Under the pieces are notes generated by a model. The model saw only the letters and a list, made by a program, of their open reading frames with translations. It was not told the origin of the DNA and made no database searches. Positions 5,815-37,622 of a stretch of 58,443 nucleotides of DNA are shown here, piece after piece; positions within the stretch are counted from its first letter, which is position 1; every line of letters begins with the position of its first letter. Origin of the DNA: a virus; the IMG/VR virus record IMGVR_UViG_3300046170_000357, positions 1 through 58,443 of that record; one strand, written 5' to 3'. The translations under genes were made by a program, and so were the position numbers.

Positions 5815-6069
5815 ATGGCTTGGAAGAAGAATAAGATAAACATGGGTAAGTATAATGCTACAGAGCATGATCTTAAAGCATATAGATGGTGTATACGTAA
5901 TAAAATATACATTGCACCAAAAGCTATTAACGATGCTAAATGGTCTATAGTTATAACAAACAACGGTAGAACTCATGAAGATCCTAGTCATTATATTAGA
6001 GATTTAATATGGGAAAAGATTTACGAATACTATAAATATTATTATGAAAAACACATATCAAAACGCTAA
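5815..6069 (+). CDS. Hypothetical protein (84 aa)
   Basis: The ATG immediately follows the primase-helicase stop. The 84-residue product is basic and rich in Tyr, Lys and Ile (KAYRWCIRNKIYIAPKA in the middle and a run of tyrosines near the end), and its last 26 bases overlap the hydroxymethylase-like gene. I do not recognise a family. Position suggests a DNA- or nucleotide-related accessory role, which is inference only. Confidence 0.6.
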   Translation: MAWKKNKINMGKYNATEHDLKAYRWCIRNKIYIAPKAINDAKWSIVITNNGRTHEDPSHYIRDLIWEKIYEYYKYYYEKHISKR

Positions 6070-6685
6070 TCAAGCATATGAATCTGTACTTGATAAAATT
6101 ATAATTGAAGGTATAGATTTTGGAGATACAAAAGCTGTATTTAATTGTGGCTTTTATATTATGGATCCGCTAGATAATTATATATCAAACAAACAGCGTA
6201 ACTGGAGTTTAAAGTATGCTGAAGCCGAATGGCAGTGGTATCTTTCTGGTGATCCAAATATTAAAAAGCTTGGTGAACTATACGGTAAAGTACCACCAAT
6301 ATGGCAGCGTATGGCAGATGAACACGGTAATGTTAATTCAAATTATGGTTATCAATGGAAACGTGATTGTCAAATAGATTATGTTTGCGCTAAGTTAAAG
6401 TCTTGCAAAGACACACGTCATGCAGCTATAAGTATTTATGATGCTAAAGAAAACAGTAAATATAAGAAAGACACGCCTTGTACTTATGCAATACAGTTTA
6501 GTATTATAAATAATGAGCTTTGTATGTCAGTCTATATGCGTTCTAATGACATCTGGTACGGCTTCTGTAATGATCAGTATCAGTTTTCATCATTACAAAA
6601 AATGATTGCAGAGAGACTGAATTTAAAAATAGGTTGGTATTATCATCACGCACATAATATGCACCTGTATAACAACAAACTATAA
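6044..6685 (+). CDS. Thymidylate-synthase-fold enzyme, predicted dCMP hydroxymethylase
   Basis: 213 residues with clear thymidylate synthase/T4 gp42 motifs: catalytic Glu62 in AEAEWQWYLSGD, NSNYGYQW (98-105), DTRHAAISIYD (123-133), nucleophile Cys146 in DTPCTYAIQF, MRSNDIWYGFCND (165-177), and H207/Y209 in NMHLYNN. The residue that is Asn in thymidylate synthases is Asp177 here, within GFCND; T4 dCMP hydroxymethylase has the same GFxND pattern, with Asp179 favouring dCMP. I therefore predict formation of 5-hydroxymethyl-dCMP from dCMP and methylene-tetrahydrofolate. It ends about 30 residues earlier than T4 gp42. A dUMP-specific relative remains possible. Confidence 0.75.
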   Translation: MKNTYQNANQAYESVLDKIIIEGIDFGDTKAVFNCGFYIMDPLDNYISNKQRNWSLKYAEAEWQWYLSGDPNIKKLGELYGKVPPIWQRMADEHGNVNSNYGYQWKRDCQIDYVCAKLKSCKDTRHAAISIYDAKENSKYKKDTPCTYAIQFSIINNELCMSVYMRSNDIWYGFCNDQYQFSSLQKMIAERLNLKIGWYYHHAHNMHLYNNKL

Positions 6686-6688
6686 TTT

Positions 6689-7468
6689 ATGTATTATTTA
6701 TACCACATACCTGGTAAAAAGATAGGCGTTACACGTAATCTTAATAACCGGGTTACGCTGCAACAAGGTTACGCAGCAGATGAATACGAAGTTCTACTTA
6801 CTAGCGATGATATTAATTTTATATCAGACAAGGAAATAGAACTTCAACAGTCTTATGGCTACAAGAAAGATAGAACATTATATAAAAATTTATTTAAATC
6901 AAATATGAAAATAAACCCAACAGAACAAACAAGTACGTTTCCAGTTCCTGTAAATAAACTTAAAGGTCAGTTAATGGACAATATAGGTTTAACGTGGACA
7001 ACACCACAAGGATATAGCTTTGTTATTAAACAAGAGTATATTAACTGGATTATGGCAAATGTATCTGAATCTATGTACAACAAAAACAGATGTTATATTT
7101 ACAATAAAGCTTTTTATGAAGCTTTCTTTAATCCAAAGCATATAGGTGAAGACATATATGATCCTTCGTTAAACGATCGCTTTGGTTTAATTAGAGACTG
7201 GGCTAAACAAAGAGGTTTGTATGATAAAGGTAATTCACATACTCAGTATGTTAAGTTAATGGAAGAGGCAGGAGAGCTAGCACAGTCTTTATTAAAACAA
7301 GATAAACCTGAAATACAAGATGCTATAGGCGATATGATCGTAGTATTAACAAACCTAGCACATCTTGAAGGTTTTACAGTTGAAGACTGTATCGATGCTG
7401 CTTATACACAAATAGCTGCGCGTAAAGGCAAGATGATTAACGGAACATTTGTAAAAGAAACATTATGA
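6689..7468 (+). CDS. Fusion: GIY-YIG-like N-terminus with MazG-type NTP pyrophosphohydrolase
   Basis: 259 residues. The first about 70 resemble a degenerate GIY-YIG nuclease core: YYLYHIPGKKIGVTRNLNNR, with R21 and a possible catalytic Glu near residue 50. A middle segment (80-170) is unrecognised. The end is an all-alpha MazG domain: MEEAGELAQS (E192, E193, E196) and EIQDAIGD (E208, D211, D215), the metal ligands that hydrolyse NTPs to NMPs. Lying next to the hydroxymethylase-like gene, a dCTP or dUTP pyrophosphatase role that supplies its substrate is plausible but inferred. Confidence 0.7.
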   Translation: MYYLYHIPGKKIGVTRNLNNRVTLQQGYAADEYEVLLTSDDINFISDKEIELQQSYGYKKDRTLYKNLFKSNMKINPTEQTSTFPVPVNKLKGQLMDNIGLTWTTPQGYSFVIKQEYINWIMANVSESMYNKNRCYIYNKAFYEAFFNPKHIGEDIYDPSLNDRFGLIRDWAKQRGLYDKGNSHTQYVKLMEEAGELAQSLLKQDKPEIQDAIGDMIVVLTNLAHLEGFTVEDCIDAAYTQIAARKGKMINGTFVKETL

Positions 7469-7779
7469 AGATAAGAACACAAGACGCAATAGTTCAGTCT
7501 GTTTTAAGAAAGATGGACGAACGTAGTTTAATCGGACAGAAAAAGTATGGAGCTACAATGATGCAAGAAATAGAAGGTCAAGAAAAAGATCTTAATCGTT
7601 TCTTAGTTGATGTACAAGAAGAACTAATGGATGCTTTATTATACATTGAAGCTGCTAAAAGATGTTTAGCTGATGAGGTTGAAGAGTGTATGATAAATAG
7701 AATAAACGTTGTAGGTCAAAACGGTAACGATGGTTTACACTATCACGACATTGAGATCAATGAAGAGAAGACCTTATAA
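7465..7779 (+). CDS. Small MazG-like (all-alpha NTP-PPase) phage protein
   Basis: 104 residues starting in an ATGA overlap. The first 70 residues are helical, with SVLRKMDERSLIGQKKYGAT and VDVQEELMDALLYIEAAKR. I recognise this arrangement as a common phage family related to all-alpha NTP pyrophosphatases. The EExxD pattern in QEELMDA fits one half of a metal site; the second acidic pair is less clear, so activity is uncertain. It follows a fused MazG domain, giving two such proteins in tandem. Confidence 0.55.
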   Translation: MKIRTQDAIVQSVLRKMDERSLIGQKKYGATMMQEIEGQEKDLNRFLVDVQEELMDALLYIEAAKRCLADEVEECMINRINVVGQNGNDGLHYHDIEINEEKTL

Positions 7780-8218
7780 ACGCAAGAAAAAACGCGGGCC
7801 AGTACAGTCAAAGAAGGTATCATATGATGGTATTAACTTTGCATCTGGCCTTGAGCGTTATATGTATATGGCTTTGAAAAAAGAAAAAATCAAAGCTAAA
7901 TACGAAGGAGAGACTTTTGTTTTATTAGCTGGTTTTCATTTTGAAAACGAAGTATATGAGAGATGTGCTAATGGTAAAGGTGATTACAAAAATAGAGGTT
8001 GCAAACGTATACTACCTATTAAGTACACGCCTGATTTTATTGGTGATGATTTTATAATTGAAACAAAAGGTAGAGCTAATGAGTCTTTTCCAATGCGTTG
8101 GAAGTTATTTAAAAGACTTGTTATGAATCAATTTCCTAATTACACATTGTATAAACCACAAAATCAAAAAGAATGCGACGAGACAATAAAGCTAATCCTT
8201 TCGAAGCGAAAAGGATAG
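7760..8218 (+). CDS. DUF1064-like PD-(D/E)XK phage nuclease
   Basis: 152 residues from the ATG at 7760, preferred over an earlier in-frame start because it gives a short overlap and the Lys/Arg-rich N-terminus (MKRRPYKRKKKRG) usual for the family. Then come VSYDGINFASGLERYMYMAL, a Cys-containing insert, IKYTPDFIGDDFIIETKG with D92, E101 and K103 as the nuclease triad, and a helical end. DUF1064 members are Holliday-junction resolvase-like nucleases. It probably trims branched replication intermediates before packaging. Confidence 0.75.
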   Translation: MKRRPYKRKKKRGPVQSKKVSYDGINFASGLERYMYMALKKEKIKAKYEGETFVLLAGFHFENEVYERCANGKGDYKNRGCKRILPIKYTPDFIGDDFIIETKGRANESFPMRWKLFKRLVMNQFPNYTLYKPQNQKECDETIKLILSKRKG

Positions 8219-8470: not shown

Positions 8471-8613
8471 GTAATAAAAAGAAACAATGGAGCCTGTCAA
8501 TAGGTACTTATCCAGGTTTACTGGTCGGTATGAGATCATACGAAGAAGAAACACAAACAACACACGTTATTTATTTACCGCTAATTGACATAGCATTAGA
8601 GATATATAAGTAA
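8467..8613 (+). CDS. Small conserved-looking phage protein (48 aa)
   Basis: A 48-codon frame with overlaps at both ends (ATGA and TAATG into nrdB). The sequence KKKQWSLSIGTYPGLLVGMR, then THVIYLPLIDIALEIYK, resembles a small protein that I recall from many unrelated phages, always unnamed. Its hydrophobic C-terminal half is too short for a confident membrane call. Function unknown. Confidence 0.55.
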   Translation: MSNKKKQWSLSIGTYPGLLVGMRSYEEETQTTHVIYLPLIDIALEIYK

Positions 8614-9581
8614 TGGGATTATTTGATAAAAGAATACCGTATAAACCTTTTGAGTACCCTGAGTATTACACAGAAGGTTGGTTAAAGCAAGCTCAAGCAT
8701 TTTGGTTACACACTGAAATACCAATGAGTGGAGATGTTAAAGATTGGAACGAAAGATTAAATGATAAAGAAAAGAACTTGGTCGGTAATATACTGCTCGG
8801 CTTCGCACAGACGGAGTGCGCGGTTTCTGATTACTGGACCCAAAAAGTAGTAAGCTGGTTTCCAAAGTACGAGATACAGCAAATGGCTATGATGTTTGGA
8901 TCACAAGAAACGATACACGCGGTAGCATATAGTTATTTAAATGAAACATTAGGATTAGAAGATTATGAAGCATTCTTACACGAACCGGCGACGGCTGAGA
9001 GATTTGATAATTTGGTTGCTTACGACGGTGATAACGCAGTTGGTATTGGTAAAAGCTTGGCTGTATTTTCAGCCTTCGCTGAAGGAGTTAGTTTGTATAG
9101 TGCTTTTGCAGTCCTTTATAGCTTTCAGCTTCGCAATTTACTTAAAGGGATCGGACAACAAATGAAATGGTCTGTTCGCGATGAAAGCTTACACAGTAAA
9201 ATGGGTTGCAAGCTTTTCCGCGATATGTGCAGCGAAAACAATCAATTACTGAATTTATGTCGAGAAGATATAGTAAAAGCTGCGGAAACCATGGTAGCAC
9301 TAGAAACTAAGTATATTAACAAGATGTTTGAGATGGGTGACATTGAAGGCATATCATCAAATGATCTTACGCATTTTATAAAAAAGAGAGCAAATGAAAA
9401 ACTTGTTGAACTGGGTTACGTTGACCTTGGGAACTATTTCGCGTATGACAAGGGCGCAGCGTCTAATCTTGATTGGTTCTATCATCTTACCGGCGGGGTC
9501 ACTCATACTGATTTTTTCGCAATACGGCCGACAGATTATAGCAAAGCTGGCGAAGGGGAAGACTTCGAAGATATTTGGTAA
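8613..9581 (+). CDS. nrdB: Ribonucleotide reductase class Ia, small (radical) subunit
   Basis: 322 residues with a complete di-iron/tyrosyl-radical site: E68 (AQTECAVSDYW), E99 and H102 (SQETIHAVAYSY), radical Tyr106, E157 (FAEGVSLYSAF), then E191 and H194 (VRDESLHSKMG). It generates the radical passed to the large subunit at 10074-11795 for reducing ribonucleoside diphosphates to deoxy forms. The C-terminal tail (GEGEDFEDIW) is acidic with a terminal aromatic, as expected for docking to the large subunit. It is separated from nrdA by two small genes. TAATG start. Confidence 0.93.
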   Translation: MGLFDKRIPYKPFEYPEYYTEGWLKQAQAFWLHTEIPMSGDVKDWNERLNDKEKNLVGNILLGFAQTECAVSDYWTQKVVSWFPKYEIQQMAMMFGSQETIHAVAYSYLNETLGLEDYEAFLHEPATAERFDNLVAYDGDNAVGIGKSLAVFSAFAEGVSLYSAFAVLYSFQLRNLLKGIGQQMKWSVRDESLHSKMGCKLFRDMCSENNQLLNLCREDIVKAAETMVALETKYINKMFEMGDIEGISSNDLTHFIKKRANEKLVELGYVDLGNYFAYDKGAASNLDWFYHLTGGVTHTDFFAIRPTDYSKAGEGEDFEDIW

Positions 9582-10073: not shown

Positions 10074-11795
10074 ATGTGGAACAATGAATGGAAAAAAGGA
10101 GAAGATTACCCTAAGTGGGGTGATACAGATGTATATAAAAAAACTATCGCAGGCGGTTACTTACTACAAGATGAAACACCTCGTGAAGCATACATGCGAG
10201 TTGCTAAAACAGTTGCGCGTAGACTTTACAAACCTGAGATGGCTGGAACGTTCTTTGATTATATTTGGAATGGTTGGCTGTGTCTGGCTAGTCCTGTGTT
10301 ATCAAATACAGGGACTGATCGTGGTTTACCTATATCTTGCTTTGGCATTGATGTTGCAGACTCGATACAGGACATAGGACAAAAAAACTTAGAGATGATG
10401 CTACTCGCTAAGCACGGCGGTGGAGTTGGCATTGGTATTAATATGATTAGACCCGCTGGCGCTAAAATAACAGGTAATGGAACAAGTGATGGCGTTGTGC
10501 CGTTTTGTAAAATATACGATTCGACAATACTTGCCACTAATCAAGGATCTGTCAGACGAGGAGCTGCATCAGTTAATATTAATATTGATCACCCCGATTT
10601 CGATGAGTGGCTCGAAATACGTGAACCTAAAGGTGATGTCAATAGACAATCACTTAACATGCACCAGTGCGCTGTGGTTGGCGATAAATTTATGCGACGA
10701 ATTGAACAAGGAGATAGAGACGCTAGAAAACGTTGGGGAAAATTACTTCAAAAGCGTAAAGCTACTGGCGAACCTTACATCCTTTTTAAGGGGAATACAA
10801 ATAAAAATAACCCACGAGCCTACAAAGACAATGGCTTAAAGGTACATATGACAAACATATGTTCAGAGATTACATTACACACAGACGAGAATCATAGCTT
10901 TGTATGTTGCTTGTCGTCATTAAATTTAGCTAAATATGATGAATGGAAAGGTACTAACCTTATATATCACGCCACGTGGTTTCTTGATGGCGTTATGGAG
11001 GAATTTATTCAAAGAGCCAAAGGACTTAGAGGTTTTGAAAATGCCGTTCGTTCTGCTAGCAAAGGACGAGCACTCGGGCTGGGTGTCCTTGGGTGGCATA
11101 CCTACCTCCAAGAAAAGGCTATTCCTTTTGAAGGTTTACTTGCTCAGTTTGAAACTAGGAAAATATTTTCGCAAATTAAAATCGAAAGCGAGCGGGCTAG
11201 TAGAGATCTTGCTGAGGTTTATGGTGAACCTTTGTGGTGCGTTGGCACTGGTATGCGTAATACTCACTTGCGCGCTATTGCTCCCACTGTTAGTAATTCA
11301 AAGCTTAGCGGAAACATTTCGCCGGGAATAGAACCTTGGGCTGCTAATGTATTTACAGAGCAGTCTGCTAAAGGTACGTTTATACGTAAAAACCCTACAC
11401 TTTTAAAATTACTTAGAAAACTTAAAATAAATAACAATGAAACTTGGGATAAAATACTGGCAGATGGTGGTAGTGTTCAAGGTCTATCTGAGCTTGACGG
11501 GGTTGTGGTTGGACCACACGATGTACCGGCTAAGGACGTTTTTAAAACGTTTAAAGAAATCAATCAACTCGAACTAGTAAATCAAGCTGGTATACGACAG
11601 CAGTACATAGATCAATCTGTTAGTTTAAATCTAGCATTTCCTAGTGTAGCTACACCTAAATGGATTAATCAGGTTCATATGTCAGCATGGAAAAAAGGTA
11701 TTAAGACCTTGTACTATACTAGAACTGAATCAGTACTACGCGGCGATATAGCACAACAAGCTATGAGTGAAGATTGTTTAGCTTGTGATGGCTAA
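10074..11795 (+). CDS. nrdA: Ribonucleotide reductase class Ia, large (catalytic) subunit, no ATP cone
   Basis: 573 residues. Catalytic signatures include C89 in LPISCFGIDV (redox Cys), the GGGVGIGINMIRPAG loop, MTNICSEITL (radical Cys and Glu), FVCCLSSLNLAKYDEW (second redox Cys) and a C-terminal CLAC shuttle pair. At 573 residues it is far shorter than the about 760 of E. coli NrdA, and the protein opens directly in the region after the N-terminal ATP cone. Overall-activity feedback by dATP should therefore be absent, a common phage trait. It is the last gene of the plus arm. Confidence 0.93.
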   Translation: MWNNEWKKGEDYPKWGDTDVYKKTIAGGYLLQDETPREAYMRVAKTVARRLYKPEMAGTFFDYIWNGWLCLASPVLSNTGTDRGLPISCFGIDVADSIQDIGQKNLEMMLLAKHGGGVGIGINMIRPAGAKITGNGTSDGVVPFCKIYDSTILATNQGSVRRGAASVNINIDHPDFDEWLEIREPKGDVNRQSLNMHQCAVVGDKFMRRIEQGDRDARKRWGKLLQKRKATGEPYILFKGNTNKNNPRAYKDNGLKVHMTNICSEITLHTDENHSFVCCLSSLNLAKYDEWKGTNLIYHATWFLDGVMEEFIQRAKGLRGFENAVRSASKGRALGLGVLGWHTYLQEKAIPFEGLLAQFETRKIFSQIKIESERASRDLAEVYGEPLWCVGTGMRNTHLRAIAPTVSNSKLSGNISPGIEPWAANVFTEQSAKGTFIRKNPTLLKLLRKLKINNNETWDKILADGGSVQGLSELDGVVVGPHDVPAKDVFKTFKEINQLELVNQAGIRQQYIDQSVSLNLAFPSVATPKWINQVHMSAWKKGIKTLYYTRTESVLRGDIAQQAMSEDCLACDG

Positions 11796-14143: not shown

Positions 14144-14460
14144 GGACTAAAGCCTTTTTCTTTCATTTCTTTTCTATTCCAACTAAAGCTTTTTAATCCG
14201 CCTACTAGTTTTCTATATTTAGAATTAAGTGGTGGTGAAAATCCTAAAGCTTCAACTGATGCAGCTTCATACTCAGGCGTTTTCTTACCGTGCTCATCGT
14301 ATAGTTTAACTATCATATTTTTAAGAGCTGAAACTGCTGTACCTGCAACACCTAAACCTTTCAACTGTGAGTCAAGCATACCGTTTGCAACTCTAGCTAT
14401 TTTCTTATCAGCACGTGCTTTTTTTCTTAGCATCTTCTTCTTCGTCTTCGCTATCACCAA
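14140..14460 (-). CDS. Segment of the giant internal virion protein
   Basis: Reading frame of about 106 codons joined to the segment upstream by a one-base change in the A-run at about 14412-14418: seven A residues read out of frame, six would read AKKKARADKKIARVANGM. Content: MLDSQLKGLGVAGTAVSALK (hydrophobic, possibly membrane-active), HGKKTPEYEAASVEALGFSP and SFSWNRKEMKEKGFSP. It is not an independent gene in my reading; its apparent ATG at 14460 is internal. Confidence 0.55.
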   Translation of the reverse strand: MVIAKTKKKMLRKKARADKKIARVANGMLDSQLKGLGVAGTAVSALKNMIVKLYDEHGKKTPEYEAASVEALGFSPPLNSKYRKLVGGLKSFSWNRKEMKEKGFSP

Positions 14461-15982
14461 ATCCTATAGCAAACAAAGCTTGCTGCAGCGCGTTGAATAT
14501 TAAGTTTTGTACAAAACCGTAATAAGCTATTTTAGACACGTGAGTTTTCCAATCGCCACGACCAGCGAGAAGATCCTGAGCAGCTCTTTTCTGTATTCTA
14601 GCATACTGCATCGGAGTATTTGCCCAAGCAAGTATTACACGACCAGCAGCGGATGCTTGCTGCAAACTAATTTTAGACGGATCACTTGACTGTTGACTTT
14701 CTTCAGCTAATGCTCTAAAGTCATCAAATGCTTTTTCTTCTGCAAGCTTTTGATCCATACCTTCTTTGATGTACTTCTTTATTCTATTTCTATAGAACGT
14801 AGCTCCACCGGTTGCAATAGCAAAACTATCAGCAAACCTTGTCATAACAAAACCCTTGCTAAGTAAGAAAGCAATAGCAGCTCTTGGCTTGTTCTTAGAA
14901 TCTTTTACTGCATCTGCTATTTCAGATTCACTTACATTAATTTTAAGACCGTTACGGCGCTGTGTTAAATAATCAGAGTTCATAAGTGACATAAAGTCTT
15001 TCCAGTATTGTTTCTGATTTGCAAACGCTTTACCTGCAGCTACAATATTATTATCACCCCAATTTATAAAGTTTACAGCAGAGATAGTCTGTAGCAATGC
15101 AGATCTTGTGTTTAAGAACATTACAGCACCAACAGAGTTGTTTAGCCAGTCAAATATCTTTTCTGTTACAGGGTTGCTTCCTATTGGTCTATTAGTACCA
15201 GCTTTCATACGACGTATGCTATCTTCCATAGCTCGACGCCATCTTGTGCCGTAAGCAGCTTCCATTTTATTTAAGTTCTCAGGTGAGAATATAATATCTA
15301 AATTCTCTCTAAACTCTTGCTGAGCTTCTGCTCTGTTAACTTTGTTTATACCACCAATAATATCTGTAGTTAAGTTACCACCTAACCAGTCTTTACCAGG
15401 CTCAGGATACGGTTTACCTTTTTGTATTGATATTAATTGATCTGCAAACGCTTGTAGTTTAGGATCTTTCTTAATAAAGCTGTTTAACTTTCTAATGTCT
15501 GCTTTTGATAATCCAGGTATTGACATACCTTGTTGCGTCCATATGTAAGTTCTAATAGCATGCTGATATGTAAAACCACCAATACCAGTTTCTTTTCTAA
15601 ATGTTTTAGGCAAACCTGGGAACTGCTGTTTAAGTGCCATAAAGTCGTTAGCCGCAGACATTTTTGACTGTACAACAGTATCTTCAGCTTTCATATATGG
15701 GTCTAACAAGTTTGTTTTAAGAAAAGCCATTTGAGCATCACCTTTCTTACCTTTACCTAACATCTTGTACAATAGACCCGTAAAGTCTTCTGCTGATGCG
15801 GGTATTAAGAAATTATATTTACCTTTGCTAGCACCAACTGTTTTAGCTTTTGCAGCTGAAAACTGCTTGTATGTTTCAATTCCAGAGGAATCAAATATCA
15901 TATCATTTACTATAGTGTCAAATGTTTTACGTTTACTAGCTTTAGCAATTTGTACTCTAGATTTAACATCTATTTGATCCAA
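14408..15982 (-). CDS. Segment of the giant internal virion protein (large polyvalent-protein-like domain)
   Basis: 524 codons, long and helical. Landmarks are FRKETGIGGFTYQHAIRTYI, RWRRAMEDSIRRMKAG, FDWLNNSVGAVMFLNTRSAL, LLQTISAVNFINWGDNN, VMTRFADSFAIATGGATFY and GRVILAWANTPMQYARIQ, then hydrophobic YYGFVQNLIFNALQQALFAI. I recognise this block from giant phage 'polyvalent' proteins (LPD38-like, tentative), believed to be packaged and injected. Its upstream end completes the HAD motif III (FYFADDATKNVKAV) in frame above 15982. Frames join at about 16068 and 14416. Confidence 0.65.
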   Translation of the reverse strand: MDQIDVKSRVQIAKASKRKTFDTIVNDMIFDSSGIETYKQFSAAKAKTVGASKGKYNFLIPASAEDFTGLLYKMLGKGKKGDAQMAFLKTNLLDPYMKAEDTVVQSKMSAANDFMALKQQFPGLPKTFRKETGIGGFTYQHAIRTYIWTQQGMSIPGLSKADIRKLNSFIKKDPKLQAFADQLISIQKGKPYPEPGKDWLGGNLTTDIIGGINKVNRAEAQQEFRENLDIIFSPENLNKMEAAYGTRWRRAMEDSIRRMKAGTNRPIGSNPVTEKIFDWLNNSVGAVMFLNTRSALLQTISAVNFINWGDNNIVAAGKAFANQKQYWKDFMSLMNSDYLTQRRNGLKINVSESEIADAVKDSKNKPRAAIAFLLSKGFVMTRFADSFAIATGGATFYRNRIKKYIKEGMDQKLAEEKAFDDFRALAEESQQSSDPSKISLQQASAAGRVILAWANTPMQYARIQKRAAQDLLAGRGDWKTHVSKIAYYGFVQNLIFNALQQALFAIGFGDSEDEEEDAKKKSTC

Positions 15983-16059
15983 AACATCTTTGACAGCTTT
16001 AACGTTTTTAGTGGCATCATCTGCAAAGTAAAAATCATTATAACCTTCAGCTGCTTTAT

Positions 16060-16353
16060 CTAGCTATCCATCTTGCCTTTAGCTTGAGCTGTGCCATCTC
16101 CTAAACCAGTTATATTATCTAAAGGTATATTTATACCTAAAGCTTTCATAAATTCTTGTATAGGACCAGCAGCATCTTGTGGTCTAGCTGTTAATATAAA
16201 TAAATCTTCAGTACCTCGAGTATCAGCTATTTTTTTAGCAACATTAAATAATGGGCCTTTTTTACCATCAATTACTTTAGCAAACTGACTAAAATCAAAT
16301 GTAGCTCCTTTAGCTTCAAGATCAGCATGCTTGTTCTGCAAACTGTGTAGCAT
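16060..16353 (-). CDS. Segment of the giant protein: core of a HAD-like phosphatase domain
   Basis: Short frame inside the giant gene, read between a one-base insertion at about 16333 and a one-base loss at about 16068. It contains FDFSQFAKVIDGKKGPLFNV and LFILTARPQDAAGPI, the latter being HAD motif II (Thr in LTAR). Motif I (VFDFDDTLAR) lies upstream in the 16272-17801 frame and motif III (ADDATKN) downstream. The three together make a complete HAD hydrolase domain that is only visible when the frames are stitched. Confidence 0.6.
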   Translation of the reverse strand: MLHSLQNKHADLEAKGATFDFSQFAKVIDGKKGPLFNVAKKIADTRGTEDLFILTARPQDAAGPIQEFMKALGINIPLDNITGLGDGTAQAKGKMDS

Positions 16354-17801
16354 TTATTTCTGTAGTAGCACCAGGTAGTTTCTTTTAAAACTTCTAATTG
16401 TTGTTCACTATTTAAGCTTGTGAAACTTTGTTTATAGCTAGGTAGATTTTCAAATTCTTTTTTAAATTTTCTTCTTGCCACAATATCAAGCATATCGCTA
16501 TCTATTTTAGACATTGGTTTTATAACTATAACTTTACTATTAGATCTAGCTAGTGTATCGTCGAAATCAAATACGCGTATTTTTTTAACCTTAGGATCTA
16601 ATCTTCTACCTTTAGCCAAAGCTTCGTCAGCTTTACCTAGATCTTGTACTACTTTTTCTACTGGTGTAAATTCTTTGTAATTTAAAGAATTAGGCGTTAA
16701 ATCAGAATCTCTTTTAGAAGCCATTACTTTTCCTGGAGCTAAAACAACTAAAGCGTCTATCATTGCTTTAACGTCTAAATCAGGATTAGTAAAGCTAGCT
16801 ACTATTTGTTCATTCTGAATATAAGCAGCTTGTAATTTTGAGTCTGCTCCAAAAGCATCATATAGTTTTTTATTTATAGCAACTCCATTTTCTTCTGCAA
16901 TTGTTTTGCCTGTTTTAGGACTAATCACTGTTTGTAGGTTTATACCAGCAGCAGCTAATCTACCAATAGGGCTATTAGCTATAGATTGACCAGCAGGAAG
17001 TTTTTTACCTAAATCTGCTTTATCAAGTTTAGTATCATCTTTTTTGGATAATTGTATTTGATAATAATTAGCTCTAATATCTTTAATTATGGGACTAACA
17101 GCATTTTTTTGTATAGCATATATTAAATTAGCACCTATAACAGAAGCGGGTATTGTATGCTCTTCTCTAAACTTAACACCAGTATTATCACTTGCTTTGC
17201 CATCAGGCCCAGCGTATTCAAATTTAATAGATTTATATTTAAAAGGCGCAGCTATTTTTATAGCACCAGTCGTAGCTTGATAACCAGAAGATATAAATAA
17301 TGAAGCTAGCTCTATAGGCATATTGTATTTATGAACAGCATCGGCTAGAATATTAGTATATTCTTCTAAAAAATCCATATTAGCACTAGATTGAGCTTCA
17401 CCTTCTTTAGAAAAAGCTTTTGCTATTGAAACTCTTTTTGCTTTTTTAAGTTTTGGATAAAATTTATCATTTTGTTTAGCTAACTTTAGAGCTTCTTTGT
17501 AGGCTGGATCACTAGTATTATAGTATAAACCTCCTCTAGTTGGAGTATTTATATATACACCATCTACTTTTTTTCTACCAAAATTACCTAATTTAGATAA
17601 TTCAAAAACAGAACTAGGTATTCTAGCTTTTTTAATATAATCAAGCATTTCTTTACGCTTAGCCTCTCTGTTGCCATCATTGATAGTTACTTTACCAATA
17701 CCAAGAACTTTAGCCACGTCATTTATACTATTTAATCCAGCAAGTTCTACTAGTTTTAAAACTTCGCTGTCGCTTAATTTAGTTATTCTTTTACTAGCCA
17801 T
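16272..17801 (-). CDS. Segment of the giant internal virion protein, contains HAD motif I
   Basis: 509 codons. The real frame extends upstream of the ATG at 17801 without a stop to about 18055 (SLYGRLVTNEVSRSPEVG and KPETKQRVAAGKAKAMASKR), so the ATG is internal. The middle holds KFREEHTIPASVIGANLIYA and unrecognised alpha/beta sequence. Near residue 412 is VFDFDDTLAR, the HAD nucleophile motif with D412 and D414. After LEVLKET the frame is lost at about 16372; the last about 30 residues of this reading are out of frame. Confidence 0.65.
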   Translation of the reverse strand: MASKRITKLSDSEVLKLVELAGLNSINDVAKVLGIGKVTINDGNREAKRKEMLDYIKKARIPSSVFELSKLGNFGRKKVDGVYINTPTRGGLYYNTSDPAYKEALKLAKQNDKFYPKLKKAKRVSIAKAFSKEGEAQSSANMDFLEEYTNILADAVHKYNMPIELASLFISSGYQATTGAIKIAAPFKYKSIKFEYAGPDGKASDNTGVKFREEHTIPASVIGANLIYAIQKNAVSPIIKDIRANYYQIQLSKKDDTKLDKADLGKKLPAGQSIANSPIGRLAAAGINLQTVISPKTGKTIAEENGVAINKKLYDAFGADSKLQAAYIQNEQIVASFTNPDLDVKAMIDALVVLAPGKVMASKRDSDLTPNSLNYKEFTPVEKVVQDLGKADEALAKGRRLDPKVKKIRVFDFDDTLARSNSKVIVIKPMSKIDSDMLDIVARRKFKKEFENLPSYKQSFTSLNSEQQLEVLKETTWCYYRNKCYTVCRTSMLILKLKELHLILVSLLK

Positions 17802-18064
17802 TGCTTTAGCTTTACCAGCTGCAACTCTTTGTTTTGTTTCTGGCTTTAACCCAACTTCAGGTGATCTTGATACTTCATTAGTTACAAGTCTACCATATAA
17901 ACTAGCAATACCTTTTAACGCTTGAGCCTGTGGTGATCTTGCGCTAAAGCCTTCTGCTTTCTTGCCTTCAACAATACCAAATGCTTCTAAAAAATCTGCC
18001 TTGCTAATGTTTTTGTTTTTAATAAATGGAGTAAGACCAGCGCCCTCGCGTACTTCGTTTGCCT

Positions 18065-21000
18065 TTAGTATAAAAAGCTTTTAATAAACCCTGTTGGAAC
18101 GCCTGTAGACGTGCCTAAGATGTCATCTGTTGCAGCTTCTGTTACTGAGCCTTCTGGTAATATTCTTAATAATTTATCAGCGTTCTTATTAACAAATTGC
18201 TGTATTGCTGTTGCATCGCCTTTTGACAGATTAGCTCTTGGATCTGTTAGTTTTTTAACAGGTATACCTATTTCTCGAGCAATAACCTCAGGTGCTAAAT
18301 CACCTAGTTTTTTAAAGGTCATACTTTTTGGATCGATGCCTTTAATTTTTTCTTTAACTTGCTCTGTTATTTCTGCAACTGCTTCAGCTGGCAATAAAGA
18401 ACTAGGTTTAGTTAGCTTGGTTGGTTTTTCTTCTACAACTTCTGTTACTTCTTCTGCTACAACACCTTTCGCCTCTGTTACGTCAGTTGTAAACTCTTCA
18501 CCTAAAACTCTTTGTGAAGCTTCAATAGCTCTAGCTGGTAAAAACTTGTTTATATAAGCAGCTAATGGCACACCTGATTCAGGCTTGTATTCCATTACTA
18601 GATCAAGAATACCACGCTTACCAGTTTCTATTTCATCAGTTAATAGTTGACGATCAAAATTTGGTGCTTGACTACGAGACTCTACTATTTTGCTCGTTAT
18701 AGGCTTAAACTTTTCTATAATTTCCATTGCTGCAGAAACACCTTGTTCATCATACAGTCTTTGAACTTCTTGTGAGTCTTCAACTCTTTTACTTTCTTTA
18801 GCTACAGATTCTTTTATTTCTGTTTCAATATCAACTTCTGGAGTTATAGCGACTTCAGCACCTTCAATAGCGGTTTTCTTTAAACCTCTTGATAAACCTT
18901 TTTGTCTATGAACACTTCTATTATAATCTTTTATAAAGTTTAATACATCTTTACCGTTTTTGAACTTTACTTTCATACCCATAGCACTTAATGCTCTACG
19001 TATAAAATTACCAAGTTTAACGCCTATAGTTTCGTTTATTTCTATAGTACCATCAGTTAAACCTTCACTGGTTAAAGTTAAAACCTCTTCCATAGTATCA
19101 GCTTGTGATATATCAGCGTCTTGTATATACTGATCTAATCTAGCTTTAAACTCAGGTTTTATTGTTATATTTTCGTTTGTTTGTAATTCATTTAATAATG
19201 ATTCACCTAAAGCTATAGCAGCTTCAGGCTTATTTTTAACAGTTTCATATAGTACAGCATGACCTGTATCGTGAACTGATCCTGTGAAAACCTTATCTTC
19301 TGTAGCAGTTTCTTTATTTAAAATTACAATTCTACGATCGTTAGGTAAAACAACAAACGTTGCGTAGTTATCAGAGCTTTTAGTATCAATTTTACCGCCT
19401 TCTTCTTGAAGAGTGGCTATAGCTGAATCAACATCTTCTTGAGTATCAAAAGACTCAAAACCAGTACCTATTTCTTCTGCTATTTTCTTAGCACCGATAT
19501 CTAGTTTTTCTGTTTTATCTTTTAGTTCAGCTTCTGAAACTATTTTATTTATTTTTTGCTCTGCCTGCTTGTATTCTTCTTTAAATCCAGTAATAGATAA
19601 ATCGTAAGCATCTTGAGATATTTTACCACCTCTTAGTTTTTTATTTAAATCTGTTATTTTAAAAGCTGCAACATCTTTAAGATCTGTTGTAGTTTCTAAG
19701 GTACTTATATCTTGATCATTTAAGTTTTCGTATATTTTATTACCTTTTACAACAGCGTCTGATATTTGTGATTCTAAATTATCTATCTGTATTTGAATAC
19801 CTTGCTTTACGGTTTTATCATCTACTTCTCTCTGTTTATTTCTAAGAGAAGTTAAATTATCTATGCTTTGATCTATATTTATAGTGCTACCTACTTGTCG
19901 TGCAGACTTCATAGCACCTATTGAATAACTACCCGCAACTACAGAGCTGCCACCGAAAGCACCTTGTACACCTTGCTCTAAACCTTCTTCACTAGTTATA
20001 GCATCTATAAAAGCTTTTCCAGCTTTAGCTATTTCTTCTGTTCCAGCAACTCTACCAAACTCTTTGTTTACTTCTTCGGCTCCATATTGAAGTACTTCTG
20101 TAGAAAATTCTGTCTTAGCAGAAGATAAAGCTCCTACGGTTGTTCTACCTGTTTTGCTATAAATTAACTTATCTGAAAGATACTTATTTAGTTTACCTAA
20201 AGCTCCACTAGAAGGAGTTTCACCTTTTAAGCCTTTTTTAGCTTTTCCAACAATTTTACCAAGTGCAAAAACCTCTAAACCTTGCTGTACTACGGCTATA
20301 CCAATTGGCACAGCAGTTTCTGCTTCACCTGATAATATTAACTCATCTAAACTAACGCCTAAGTTTTTAGCTTTCTGCTCATTATAATTTATATAATTAT
20401 CAGCTGTATAATCCATAAAAAAACCAGTACCTCCAGTTCCTGTATTATAAGCTATACTTCCTACCATGTTAGAAACAGCGTTTATACTTCCTGCTATAAC
20501 ACCACCAACATCTCCTTTTTTGTAACTTTCTATTATACCCTTAGTCGGAAGAGTTTCTTTTTTTTCTTCTTTTAATTTTTCTATATCTTCTGCAGTGGCT
20601 TTACTTCCTAAACCTTCAGCTAGCCAAGAATCTTCTCCAACCCAATTAACGTATTTATCTACATTTTCTTGACCAAAAATAAAGCTATAAACAGCATTAG
20701 TTGCTATATCTAAAGCTGAATTAGTGTCTTCTTGTTCAGAAATTGGAGTACCTGGTATGTTATTTAAACCCCAAAAATCTAAAACTCCTTTTATTTGATT
20801 TCCAGTATTAATAAAAGAGTTTTTTATAGACTCCCAAGAAGAAATTTCACTTTGTCCTTTAGGTTTTTTATTTTTTTGTTTTTCAGTATATATGTCAAAT
20901 TCTTCTTTACTTACATTTTTTCCGTCTATATCATAAGTTATTTCAGGTTCTGGTGATACCGAAAAAGTATCTTCCAACCCAAATTCCGTAACGAGCTCTG

Positions 21001-21220
21001 GTGCTTCTTGAGGTCCCATCGACGGAGCAACTGCACCCGGTACACCGTCTTTTTTCTTTACTGTACCAAGATCTACTTCTTCAAGCTCTACTTGTTCAGA
21101 AACTTCAACTTCTTGTTCTTTCCATCTGTTAGCTTTTTTCCACTCTTGTACTAATCTAACTTTTTCTTCGTTAGAAAGACTAGGATCTAAAGAATCTACG
21201 TATAGTTCTAATTCGTTCAT
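18065..21220 (-). CDS. N-terminal segment of the giant internal virion (polyvalent) protein, protease-like site
   Basis: 1,051 codons from the ATG at 21220. It starts MNELELYVDSLDPSLSNEEK, then has a low-complexity acidic region, glycine-rich hydrophobic stretches (SMVGSIAYNTGTGGTGFF, AVPIGIAVVQQGLEVFALGK) suited to membrane passage, long coiled coils, and VHDTGHAVLYETV at H650-H654, a degenerate HExxH-like metallopeptidase site with Asp for Glu. Then come GMKVKFKNGKDVLNFIKDYN and PLAAYINKFLPARAIEASQR. The size and mosaic fit large injected ejectosome proteins. It ends at a double shift near 18060; the next frame continues at once. Confidence 0.75.
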   Translation of the reverse strand: MNELELYVDSLDPSLSNEEKVRLVQEWKKANRWKEQEVEVSEQVELEEVDLGTVKKKDGVPGAVAPSMGPQEAPELVTEFGLEDTFSVSPEPEITYDIDGKNVSKEEFDIYTEKQKNKKPKGQSEISSWESIKNSFINTGNQIKGVLDFWGLNNIPGTPISEQEDTNSALDIATNAVYSFIFGQENVDKYVNWVGEDSWLAEGLGSKATAEDIEKLKEEKKETLPTKGIIESYKKGDVGGVIAGSINAVSNMVGSIAYNTGTGGTGFFMDYTADNYINYNEQKAKNLGVSLDELILSGEAETAVPIGIAVVQQGLEVFALGKIVGKAKKGLKGETPSSGALGKLNKYLSDKLIYSKTGRTTVGALSSAKTEFSTEVLQYGAEEVNKEFGRVAGTEEIAKAGKAFIDAITSEEGLEQGVQGAFGGSSVVAGSYSIGAMKSARQVGSTINIDQSIDNLTSLRNKQREVDDKTVKQGIQIQIDNLESQISDAVVKGNKIYENLNDQDISTLETTTDLKDVAAFKITDLNKKLRGGKISQDAYDLSITGFKEEYKQAEQKINKIVSEAELKDKTEKLDIGAKKIAEEIGTGFESFDTQEDVDSAIATLQEEGGKIDTKSSDNYATFVVLPNDRRIVILNKETATEDKVFTGSVHDTGHAVLYETVKNKPEAAIALGESLLNELQTNENITIKPEFKARLDQYIQDADISQADTMEEVLTLTSEGLTDGTIEINETIGVKLGNFIRRALSAMGMKVKFKNGKDVLNFIKDYNRSVHRQKGLSRGLKKTAIEGAEVAITPEVDIETEIKESVAKESKRVEDSQEVQRLYDEQGVSAAMEIIEKFKPITSKIVESRSQAPNFDRQLLTDEIETGKRGILDLVMEYKPESGVPLAAYINKFLPARAIEASQRVLGEEFTTDVTEAKGVVAEEVTEVVEEKPTKLTKPSSLLPAEAVAEITEQVKEKIKGIDPKSMTFKKLGDLAPEVIAREIGIPVKKLTDPRANLSKGDATAIQQFVNKNADKLLRILPEGSVTEAATDDILGTSTGVPTGFIKSFLY

Positions 21221-21225
21221 TTAAT

Positions 21226-22327
21226 TTAAGTTAATTTGTTATCTTGTAAAAACTTTTGAGCTTTAGCTTTTTTAGCTTCTGCTAGATCAAATACAGCGGC
21301 GTCTGCCTTCTACTATAGGTAGCTTGTTTGTAGTAAATTGCTTTAAGTAGTTATTCATAAAATAATCCCCGTATTTGCTTTCAAATAATTCTTTATTTTT
21401 TTGAGACAAAGGTAATACTTCTTTGTAATCCCAAGCAACACTACCTGCGTTTGCATTTTGTGCCATTTGATCATCTTCTTCAACACTTGATCCTTGACCA
21501 ATAAAAACGTTCCAAGCAGCTACAACGCTTTGTTCTTGTTGTAACAAGCCTGCTACTTCAGCATTTACAAATGGCTGTGCTTTTCTTTTAATTTTGTCTA
21601 AATCAAACTTAAGTACGTTTCTACCTTTGCCACCGCCTATGTCTATTATTTCATAGTCAAAAGATCCGTCTACATTTTTCATAACAAACTCTTCAGATAA
21701 AGAAGCCTCTGGTAGTAAGTTACCTTCTTCATCTGCGGATCCGTCTGCTAAAATACCACTATCAACTAATAGTTTTAGCATGTCTGCATTTACATCTGGA
21801 GTTTCAACTACAAGGCTAGTGTTTGATTCTAGTAAAGCACTAAGCGTATTGCTGTTAATCACTAAAGGTTTTTCAAACAAAGGTCCTTCAAATACTATTT
21901 CCTGAGAACCATCTTGCATAAGATTTAAATAAACATTATATCCTTCTGTCTTAGAAAAACCAGGTTTGTTAGTCATAATGCAATTAGCGACCATAAAAGA
22001 GTAATCGTTGTTAACGTCATAGTAATTATCCTCTGTTACAGAAAGCTCGTCTACGACCTGTTGTAAGAACTCTATGGACTTCTGAGGAGCTTCATCTAGT
22101 CTTTTTACTTGCTCATGTTCGTAATTACAGCTTTCATCTAAACATTTACCTGATTGTATAGCCATTTTTAGTTTAGCATACATCTTACCTGTATTAGCAT
22201 AAGCATTGTCTAGTATTTTAAAAGAAGCGTCAATGTTAGCTGCAACGTAATCTTCGTTGTAAGCTAGCGCGTTACTTTTATTAGCTTGTTGTATAGACAG
22301 ATTATATGTTATGTTTTTATTCTCCAT
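21226..22327 (-). CDS. Virion-associated hypothetical protein (about 366 aa), frame shifted near its end
   Basis: From ATG at 22327 (MENKNITYNLSIQQANKSNA); the longer start at 22384 would lie inside the upstream gene. It is acidic and helical, with DESCNYEHEQVKRLDE, LSVTEDNYYDVNNDYSF and SLSEEFVMKNVDGSFDYEII. The direct reading stops at 21287 after VEGRRRCI, but removing one base near 21297 continues as DAAVFDLAEAKKAKAQKF to a stop at 21226, six bases before the giant gene. Position between two internal virion-like proteins suggests a core or ejection component. Confidence 0.6.
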
Positions 22328-22331
22328 TTTA

Positions 22332-22991
22332 TCATTTTTTACCAAATGCACCTCCAAATAAACTAGCTGCAGCTCCAATACCACCAGTTAAAGCAGCTGT
22401 GCTATCTCTACTAGCAGAAGCGGCTTGACCTCTTAAGGCTGCTATTTGATTAGAAACTCTATCTAACTGTTGTTGCTCTCTTTGCTCTGTCATGCCAAAT
22501 ACAAATTGTCTACCGGCTACGTCTGCTTGTTGTAGCCTTTGTTGTTCAGACATTTTCTGTTGCTGTAGTGTAGCTTCACCAGCTGCTCTTTGTCTTTCAT
22601 TAGCTACTTCTTGACTTTCAATACTAGCTGCTACACCTTTTTTAGCCCGCAATGCGGCTTGAGCTAAAGCCGTGGCACCACCTGCTGAAGCACCCGTAGC
22701 TCTTATGGCATCTAAAGTATTAGCTAAAGCAATATCACTTTGTTCCATTTGTATTTCAGCTGCTTGAGTAGCTACACTTAAACTAGCAAAAGGATTACTA
22801 AGCATTGAGCTTAAATCCTGAACGCCTTCATAAGGATTAATTATTTCTTGACGATTTTTTTCTAGTTCAGTTAATTTTGTTTCTAGCTTAGCAGCCTCTC
22901 TACGAGCTCTTTTAGCAGCTCTTCTAGCCTTTCTAGACCCAAATATACCACCAGCTAAACTAGCTACGCCGCCTATTATAGCTCCTACCAT
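22332..22991 (-). CDS. Internal virion-like protein (T7 gp14-like size and character)
   Basis: 219 residues. A glycine-rich hydrophobic N-terminus (MVGAIIGGVASLAGGIFGSR) is followed by a basic helix (KARRAAKRARREAAKLETKL), Ala/Gln-rich coiled coil throughout, and a Gly/Ala hydrophobic end (TGGIGAAASLFGGAFGKK). This design is typical of small ejected proteins that line a channel across the cell envelope. It sits directly upstream of the acidic 366-aa and giant genes, making a plausible three-protein ejection set. Call rests on composition and position, not strict homology. Confidence 0.6.
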   Translation of the reverse strand: MVGAIIGGVASLAGGIFGSRKARRAAKRARREAAKLETKLTELEKNRQEIINPYEGVQDLSSMLSNPFASLSVATQAAEIQMEQSDIALANTLDAIRATGASAGGATALAQAALRAKKGVAASIESQEVANERQRAAGEATLQQQKMSEQQRLQQADVAGRQFVFGMTEQREQQQLDRVSNQIAALRGQAASASRDSTAALTGGIGAAASLFGGAFGKK

Positions 22992-35233: not shown

Positions 35234-37622
35234 TTACATAAACGCGTTCATACCAGCGTCTGGCTGATTTTCAAAATCAATTGGTAAGCCATCATTATTT
35301 CTCTGACTTATCATTTCACTCTGCTGCGTACCTTCCATTTTTATACGCTTGTCTTTTCTATCTTCTTTTTGTTGTTCTTTTTGAGCTTGACCTTGAACTT
35401 CAAGTTGCTTTAACTGCATATCAAACTCGTGTTGCATTTGCATTTTTTGTTGATCAAGCTGTGCTTGTATTTGCATTTTTTGAATCTCCATTTGAGTTCT
35501 AGCTTGCTCATATTGAACTTTAGAACCGCTAATAGCCTCTTGCTTTTGAACTTCGTTCATTGCAATTTTCTCATTAGCATCTGCTTGAGACTCGGCTTGA
35601 GCTCTAATATTAGCTTGATTATTCTCTTGGTCTTTCTTAGCTTTAGCCTTACGCTTAACCTTTAATAATTGATTAGCTAATTTAAGATTTTTAATCTGTC
35701 TTAAATCTATAGCATCTTCAAGATCAATACCTCCTTGCTGCAGTGCAACTTGTATATTAGCTTCTAACTGAGCTTTTTCTTCATCGTCTGGTTCTAACTC
35801 TAAGAAAATACCAAAGTCATGAAGATTTAAATTAACAACTTCTTTCAATGTGTTAACATTGTAATTACTAATAGAGTTAGTAAGCGACTCAGCTGTTAAT
35901 GGAAACTCTAGTGCGTCTGCTATTTTAAGAGCTATGTTTTCTGCAACTCTAAGAGTTAAATAAGATGATGACTGCTTAATATGTCTAGTAGCAACATTAG
36001 ACGCGTTAGCGGCCATTTTTTGTAAACCTACTAAAGTACTTTTATCAGGCGTACTACCATCTCTAGCTTCATTAAGACCCGTTACGTCACGTATCATTTG
36101 CAGGTAATACTGGTACGTATTTATAAGACTTTGTATTTTGCCTTGACCAGAGCTAGAGTTTAATTCTTGAATTGGTACTTTACCTCTGTTTAAGTCACCG
36201 TCTTGAGTTAAGCTTCTACCTACAATAGAACCAGTTTGGAAATACATATTTAATGCTTCAGCCGGGTTATAATTAGTACCATTACCAAGATCTACCTCAG
36301 CTAAGCCGTCCATATCCAAATAAACACCATCTGGTACTATTCTAGACATTACTTGCTGTAGTTTCAAATGTGTTATTTGAATCATATCAGCAAAGCCAAT
36401 ACATTTGCTAACTAAGCTTTCTATTCTACCTTTGTACATTCTGGGTGCACATATAGAATAATTCATTTTAACTTTAGTAGTATCAGCATAAGGTCTTGAC
36501 ATATTTTCAGCAAGTTCCCATTTAAGCATTGTATCAGTTCCTAATACTTTAGCGCCGCTGTATAAAACCTCTATTGATCTTGATACTCTTTCAAAGTTAT
36601 CATTTTCAGGTGGATTAAACGTGTCTGGCTTTTCAATAGCTTTTAACAGACCTTGATCTGTTTTCTTAATTTTAAATACTTGATTATGATACGTCTTGTA
36701 ATCAAAATATAAAACCTGCACAGTATTCTCGTCGTATCCACCCCAACCAGTTACATATTGTCTATTGCCTGGCATTTGTTGTATACGCTCTAATTCTTTT
36801 TCAGATATATTTGGAAACTCTTTTTTAAGCTCTGGTATTGTTATAGACTTTATTTCACCTACATAATATATATCTTCAAAGTTGGGATCTTCTGTATATG
36901 AATAAACCATATAAGCTGGGTCTACGTAATCAATAGTAATACCGTTAGCTGTGTTAAAGTTTGTTTTAGCAGCTGCGATACCACAAACAGCTAAATCCAT
37001 ATTAAGTCTACGCTTTGTAAGCTCGTATTTATTTTGAGCCATAACAGAGGATATAGCTTCTTCTTCAGCTATCTCTATGCTTTGCTTATATGACAACTGC
37101 ATATGAAGCTCTAGCTCTTCTTCGCTTCTCAGGTAGTAAATCAGGGTTTGGTACTTGATATAAGTCAATACCTAGATTTGTTTTTAAATTATCTAAGTAT
37201 TCTTTAGCTAGCATGTCTTCATATATCTTAGAAGCATACTCAGTTCTTTTCTTTATAGATTCAGGATCTTGAGCATAAGCTTTAACATCATAAGAATGTG
37301 CTGATATACCATTAACAACAATGTCTACAAACTTAGATAAAATAGGTACAGGTTTCCAGTCTAAATTAAGGTAAGACAAATCACCATTAATAGACAATTC
37401 ATCTTTGTATTTTTGAACAGGTTGCTCGCCTCTAGCGTACAGTCTCAATGTGTTAAAGTTATTCCAATTGGTTAAATAAGCGTTGCCGTTGGTTCTACCT
37501 GACTTGAACCATTCATACTCAATAGCCATAGCAACTTGACTGCCGTACTCTATGCTTGCTTTTTCAGCATCACTAACTACTTGACTTGGAAAAGCGCTAT
37601 TTGAATTAGTATATATATTCAT
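35234..37622 (-). CDS. Portal protein, interrupted by a one-base shift
   Basis: Two overlapping frames form one about 795-residue portal. The first, from ATG 37622 (MNIYTNSNSAFPSQVVSDAE), reaches NPDLLPE near 37128 and then goes out of frame. The other immediately gives SEEELELHMQLSYKQSIEIA, a motif I recognise from crAss-like portals, then RIVPDGVYLDMDGLAEVDLG, DVTGLNEARDGSTPDKSTLV and a long Gln-rich coiled-coil barrel end (EQARTQMEIQKMQIQAQLDQ). Removing one G at about 37128 fuses them. It forms the DNA gate at one capsid vertex. Confidence 0.85.

Follow-up and report, generated by a model that had tools for sequence, protein, structure and literature searches.

A predicted dCMP 5-hydroxymethylase of the T4 gp42 kind in an uncultured clade of podoviruses related to flavobacterial phages

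One enzyme that makes the precursor of 5-hydroxymethylcytosine (5hmC) in phage DNA is the deoxycytidine monophosphate (dCMP) hydroxymethylase of phage T4, gp42, and it is with this enzyme and its kin that we compare here a predicted protein of 213 amino acids (aa), encoded at positions 6044..6685 (ATG to TAA) of the IMG/VR record IMGVR_UViG_3300046170_000357, a viral DNA of 58,443 nucleotides that we call the window and on whose plus strand the enzyme, its motifs and the neighbouring operon genes given below with coordinates lie. In the paper on the T4 ternary complex the signature of hydroxymethylation consists of Asp145, which precedes the catalytic Cys by three positions and activates the hydroxyl-forming water, together with Ser94-x-Tyr96; a D145N mutant made no 5-hydroxymethyl-dCMP (5hm-dCMP), Asp179 serves in cytosine recognition, Arg177 holds the folate tail, and folate binding does without the C-terminal tail of thymidylate synthase (TS) (PMC6400193). 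Of the same fold are MilA, a CMP 5-hydroxymethylase of mildiomycin biosynthesis whose substrate is switched to dCMP by A176S/K133R (PMC5175136), and RB69 ORF048c, whose type is described as the Mosigvirus 5-hydroxy-dCMP synthase in PMC13390438 and to which AfhB (PDB 9iqu) is nearly identical. The gene is not new in Bacteroidota phages, because a homologue, 45% identical to the window enzyme and annotated as deoxycytidylate 5-hydroxymethyltransferase, is present in deposited genomes of phages of Bacteroides fragilis (BF503P2, BF486P2 and others). A preliminary description of the window knew of no established case of hydroxymethylated cytosine in Bacteroidota podoviruses; no chemical demonstration of the modification in Bacteroidota phages was found in the literature searched, the coverage of which was incomplete.

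Residue signature and substrate of the predicted enzyme

The open reading frame (ORF) matches TS profiles (Pfam Thymidylat_synt, E=4.5e-26; PHROG thymidylate synthase, 1.1e-38) and is intact, though the record has frameshift-like splits elsewhere. A scan of IMG/VR viral-contig candidates found 397 stretches encoding relatives, and the family statistics given here refer to the best 80 of these 397, which are 69-97% identical to the window enzyme; the window-family alignment holds 81 sequences. Given these 397 relatives, and since the active-site residues are kept in the best 80 at the positions checked (except in one truncated copy and in one with a GFCNG motif), we regard the ORF as real and not as a chance reading frame. 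Exactly 213 aa is the length of 64 of the 80, and nearly all end in HLYN(N/D)KL or a close variant. The window enzyme stops four residues past Tyr209, so that the C-terminal lid of TS is missing, likewise in nearly all relatives. The residues singled out in the preliminary description (Glu62, Cys146, Asp177 in G173-F-C-N-D177, His207 and Tyr209) were all confirmed by alignment. Taken together, the ORF encodes a compact, intact-looking enzyme with every published sequence hallmark of 5-hydroxymethylcytosine synthesis as in T4, and it very probably catalyses dCMP 5-hydroxymethylation.

The choice of substrate was read at positions 147, 165 and 177 (these and positions 58, 80 and 173 are given in E. 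coli TS numbering in the cross-family alignment), where TS has His/Gln/Asn. The combination Asn/Asn/Asn is shared by SPO1 gp29, a dUMP hydroxymethylase, and a Kuttervirus protein whose annotation gives it the same function, whereas the window family has Thr/Met/Asp, as do T4 gp42 and MilA. Asp177, in the G173-F-C-N-D177 motif (6560..6574), corresponds to T4 Asp179 and is present in all 80 family rows having a residue there, a separate motif count giving one copy with GFCNG. The two positions that the MetaGPA study linked most strongly to cytosine-modified contigs were 177 (Asp) and 147 (PMC8670742). Moreover, the window enzyme carries the deoxy-substrate residues Ser167 and Arg126 where MilA has Ala176 and Lys133 for ribose, which indicate that dCMP would be favoured over CMP. 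ThyA was rejected as an assignment, since it needs His147, Gln165, Asn177 and a C-terminal lid and the window enzyme has Thr, Met, Asp and no lid; a dUMP hydroxymethylase of the SPO1 gp29 type was rejected for its need of Asn at all three positions, both groups also standing apart in the tree; and a ribo-specific CMP hydroxymethylase was rejected by Ser167, Arg126 and the tree. On this alignment Asp177, Thr147 and Met165 are marks of a cytosine substrate and not of the type of chemistry: AfhB and RB69 ORF048c are Thr/Met/Asp as well, and because of this Asp177 alone, on which the preliminary description had based its assignment to the dCMP hydroxymethylases, is insufficient for an assignment that the further residues nevertheless support, and more strongly than that description could.

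These further residues are those of the hydroxymethylation signature together with Glu62, Trp87, Asp169 and Gly173. In D143-T-P-C146-T147 (6470..6484) the Asp three before the catalytic Cys is the equivalent of T4 Asp145, and S99-N-Y101 (6338..6346) aligns with T4 Ser94 and Tyr96, the second half of the signature (PMC6400193); Asp143 and Ser99-x-Tyr101 are found in 81/81 family sequences. Glu62 (6227..6229), the counterpart of E. coli TS Glu58 and T4 Glu60 in folate activation, is likewise present in 81/81, as is Cys146, and Asp169 (6548..6550) aligns with T4 Asp171, a pterin contact; dCMP hydroxylases have Phe and Asn at these two positions. Glu62, Trp87, Asp169 and Gly173 are all as in T4 gp42 and invariant in the 81 sequences.

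We hypothesise a reaction in which dCMP would be supplied by the phage ribonucleotide reductase, probably together with a MazG pyrophosphohydrolase, Cys146 would attack its C6, and Asp177 would recognise and protonate the cytosine, while Glu62 would activate methylene-tetrahydrofolate. Asp143, with Ser99 and Tyr101, would then position a water for addition to the exocyclic methylene, giving 5hm-dCMP and tetrahydrofolate and not 5-methyl-dCMP and dihydrofolate. Host kinases could convert the product to 5hm-dCTP, which would replace some or all of the cytosine in phage DNA and block restriction enzymes. To this explanation, in which the gene encodes a dCMP 5-hydroxymethylase that depends on folate and resembles T4 gp42, we give a probability of about 0.8.

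Fold, phylogeny and rival chemistries

The fold and the tree support this assignment. The AlphaFold model (predicted local distance difference score, pLDDT, 86.8; predicted template modelling score, pTM, 0.85) has MilA as its top match, with a template modelling (TM) score of 0.88, and MilA, which has a large extra C-terminal domain, is also the best match in the PDB for the family profile (1.2e-23), followed by T4 dCMP hydroxymethylase (5.4e-20) and E. coli TS (8e-20). In an IQ-TREE phylogeny of 30 rows (starred support threshold 95/80), the window family forms a clade (96/96), joined by one Bacteroides phage enzyme, BF503P2_b (97/93), and then by T4 gp42 and the Aeromonas phage 31 homologue (88/93, below the starred threshold); hydroxylases (99/98), TS (100/100) and dUMP hydroxymethylases (97/90) form separate clades, and for the remaining Thr/Met/Asp enzymes the tree gives no resolution at depth. 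Clustering with gp42, which the preliminary description had put forward as its test, was thus recovered with moderate support. T4 gp42 and the window enzyme have in common the TS fold and the residue at nearly every active-site position compared, including Trp80; T4 gp42 differs in length (246 aa, the window enzyme having 24 fewer residues after Tyr209), in Val at position 83, where the window enzyme has Met, and in the gp1 kinase, gp56 dCTPase and glucosyltransferases that are not found with the window enzyme. The BF503P2_b-type enzymes (226 aa) share the signature and 44.7% identity over the full length; they have no neighbours found in common with the window and adjoin a dUTPase as well as another, unusual paralogue of TS. 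This second TS-fold protein of Bacteroides phage BF503P2 (L001:17121-17927), annotated as the same enzyme and preceded by a P-loop AAA_28 protein, has Leu58, Leu173 and a very long branch, and may differ in activity.

Two other chemistries on a cytosine substrate have to be weighed. The structure search also matched the phage dCMP hydroxylases 9iqu and 9iqc (TM 0.82-0.85), and a flavin-dependent 5-hydroxylase of the RB69/AfhB type, giving 5-hydroxycytosine as a sugar acceptor, would have the same fold, a similar size, the same short C-terminus and the same Thr147, Met165 and Asp177; enzymes of the RB69 type were, in addition, long mistaken for hydroxymethylases, and some records keep that name. 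This chemistry is nonetheless highly improbable here: hydroxylases have Phe58, Glu three before the Cys, Asn169, Val173 (Thr in PAU) and Val, Ala or Thr at position 80, where the window enzyme has Glu, Asp, Asp, Gly and Trp, and all those compared differ from it at Glu62, Asp143, Asp169 and Gly173. They also form their own clade, the family profile matches AfhB far more weakly (2e-12) than gp42, and the window has no sugar operon. The five residues of the window enzyme are those of T4 gp42, the Aeromonas phage 31 homologue, the vipetofem and ATCCB enzymes and the window family (81/81), and in vipetofem (PF09198, 6.4e-61) and, by annotation, in Lactobacillus phage ATCCB the gene for an enzyme with this signature has a T4-type beta-glucosyltransferase gene beside it. 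A dCMP methylase giving 5-methyl-dCMP, with an activity like that of phage XP12 or as a TS with N177D, is comparably improbable. TS N177D/N229D mutants are cited as methylating dCMP in PMC8670742, and the window enzyme keeps Trp80 and Asp169; however, Trp at position 83 is replaced by Met, and Asp143 with Ser99 is the water-activating signature, TS having Leu and Pro/Asn there, in a comparison made without the XP12 enzyme sequence.

The enzymes of PAU, Acj9, AF3 and RHph_I46 are, judging by their sequences, putative hydroxylases, an assignment that published work backs for the RB69/AfhB type only. Among them, Sphingomonas phage PAU gp182 (L092:3983-4690), called a thymidylate synthase, has the residue pattern of dCMP 5-hydroxylases and lies near nucleotide-sugar genes; it likely performs 5-hydroxycytosine chemistry. 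The residue comparison thus gives a practical rule for separating dCMP hydroxymethylases from the 5-hydroxylases misnamed in some public records.

Operon context, restriction sites and incorporation into DNA

The gene order primase-helicase, small ORF, hydroxymethylase, MazG, MazG-like protein, DUF1064 nuclease, NrdB and NrdA is kept in most relatives. In the window, a small, fast-evolving ORF of 84 aa (5815..6069; median 44% identity in 75 relatives) overlaps the start of the enzyme, which is followed by a protein with a MazG nucleotide pyrophosphohydrolase domain at its C-terminus (6689..7468; residues ~189-246, PF03819, 3.2e-6), by a second, weaker MazG-like ORF (7465..7779, PHROG profile) that is kept beside the enzyme in 75/80 relatives, and, in the same operon and recognised by profiles, by a DUF1064/Holliday-junction-resolvase-like nuclease (7730..8218) and the small (8613..9581) and large (10074..11795) subunits of ribonucleotide reductase, for deoxynucleotide supply. 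The MazG neighbours reported earlier are therefore real, and the first of them is a candidate dCTP pyrophosphatase; its role in dCMP supply, suggested in the preliminary description, is kept conditional here, because MazG/PRA-PH proteins are also present in phages lacking the enzyme. The link between MazG and the enzyme is supported by a locus (L214:5155-6627), possibly an integrated element, where a 52% identical enzyme follows a MazG gene in an otherwise different context; its contig belongs to a Sphingobacteriaceae bin and also encodes a tyrosine integrase.

Across 50 genomes or loci having the gene, the observed/expected ratio of GATC ranges from 0.78 to 1.47, so that none avoids this site strongly, and a strongly avoided 4-base palindrome was seen in only one (GGCC in L040). 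Of the few genomes without the enzyme in this test, five flavobacterial-type phages in the stretches read (phi10:1 being related by primase-helicase only, with 19.7 kb read), three strongly avoid at least one palindrome; MW202828 has 0 GATC against 202 expected and 0 CCGG against 26, and elemoE has 2 CATG against 122. The comparison used named phage records, with the terminase-based IMG/VR sample, mostly short contigs, set aside. The lack of site avoidance fits, if weakly, protection by modified cytosine.

Because the enzyme has every published hallmark of synthesis of the 5hmC precursor, the phage DNA is probably chemically disguised, and we consider it likely, with less confidence than for the enzyme activity, that virion DNA contains 5hmC or a derivative. 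Several points weigh against the reading as a whole. At the place of T4 Arg177 the window enzyme has Cys175. BF503P2 carries the enzyme and yet avoids GATC (observed/expected 0.06), which makes site avoidance an imperfect indicator; the gene-carrying clade, moreover, represents roughly one evolutionary event, and hosts differ between the compared phages. T4 relies on its own kinase to phosphorylate 5hm-dCMP. No dNMP kinase (PF21448) was found in the window or in 20 relatives, neither the window nor the relative G001 has a P-loop protein other than the primase-helicase, and phosphorylation would therefore rest on host enzymes. No gp56-type dCTPase was detectable in either MazG protein (profile alignment probability <3%), and no glycosyltransferase, carbamoyltransferase or DNA polymerase was recognised in the window. 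Searches for DNA polymerase A, carbamoyltransferase, GT2 and ThyX that covered the window and as many as 20 relatives found none. The absence of a recognisable glycosyltransferase or dNMP kinase in the window agrees with the preliminary description, and the T4-type set for hmC replacement (dNMP kinase, dCTPase, glucosyltransferase) was not found in the window, the record of which may be incomplete; the later T4-like steps would thus need host help or undetected proteins. These absences, namely of a phage kinase, DNA polymerase and glycosyltransferase, would also suit an active hydroxymethylase whose product is little or not at all incorporated and which mainly drains or alters nucleotide pools, but we hold this to be unlikely, as the active site is strictly kept over 80 relatives in a fixed replication operon and restriction-site avoidance is absent.

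If incorporation does occur, T4-like cytosine replacement would reach a clade of uncultured podoviruses that appears to be common and is related to phages of flavobacteria, and in a minimal form, with no phage kinase, glucosyltransferase or recognised polymerase, so that host enzymes could run the later steps. Common restriction enzymes would then fail to cut such genomes, and methods needing unmodified DNA may under-sample them. The window enzyme in itself is an ordinary, well-supported addition to the dCMP hydroxymethylase family.

The phage, its record and a variable cassette

The window terminase matches 87 phage records, 86 of them from Flavobacterium, Cellulophaga, Tenacibaculum or Maribacter phages and one from a metagenome podovirus (MW202828, 69%), the closest annotated relative by terminase. 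Close copies also occur in metagenomic bins that bear the names Flavobacteriaceae and Saprospiraceae, and with less plausibility in Aliivibrio and Halieaceae bins, the last two being probably misbinned phage contigs. Owing to the terminase matches and bin names, the host is probably a member of the Bacteroidota (marine flavobacteria), and the phage, by its sequence, is one of an uncultured clade whose relatives include flavobacterial podoviruses. A TS-fold protein is absent in the relatives checked, of which MW202828, phi19:3 and Gundel_1 were covered completely and elemoE over 50 of 60 kb, and MW202828 is annotated with a flavin adenine dinucleotide (FAD)-dependent thymidylate synthase instead of the hydroxymethylase. 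In G001, about 5.8 kb including a DNA ligase lie between the points matching the two ends of the window, from which we take the window record to be probably incomplete. Compared with G001, structural genes at 14408-22384 and 35234-39524 (a 2851-aa tail protein, terminase and portal) are split by apparent frameshifts, the terminase having 495 aa against 736 and the portal 644 against 795, suggesting sequencing indels in the window record.

Among 65 relatives in which the ribonucleotide reductase region was read, about 10 (L080, 14694-18790; L047, L061, L065-L069, L076 and L079) have, directly after NrdA and on the same strand, a four-gene cassette that the window itself lacks; it encodes a JmjC_2 protein and a cupin, followed by a protein resembling glycosyltransferases and a member of the GT29 sialyltransferase family. 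In L080 there are also KdsA (TIGR01362, scoring above cut-off) and a protein like KdsB, enzymes for making CMP-KDO (CMP-3-deoxy-D-manno-octulosonate), a donor of the GT29 type. That a variable DNA decoration is built on 5hmC in this uncultured clade, with cytosines carrying an acidic KDO-like sugar, is a doubtful idea, and sugars of the host surface are an equally good target for the cassette; a KDO-like sugar on DNA cytosine would, if confirmed, be a new modification.
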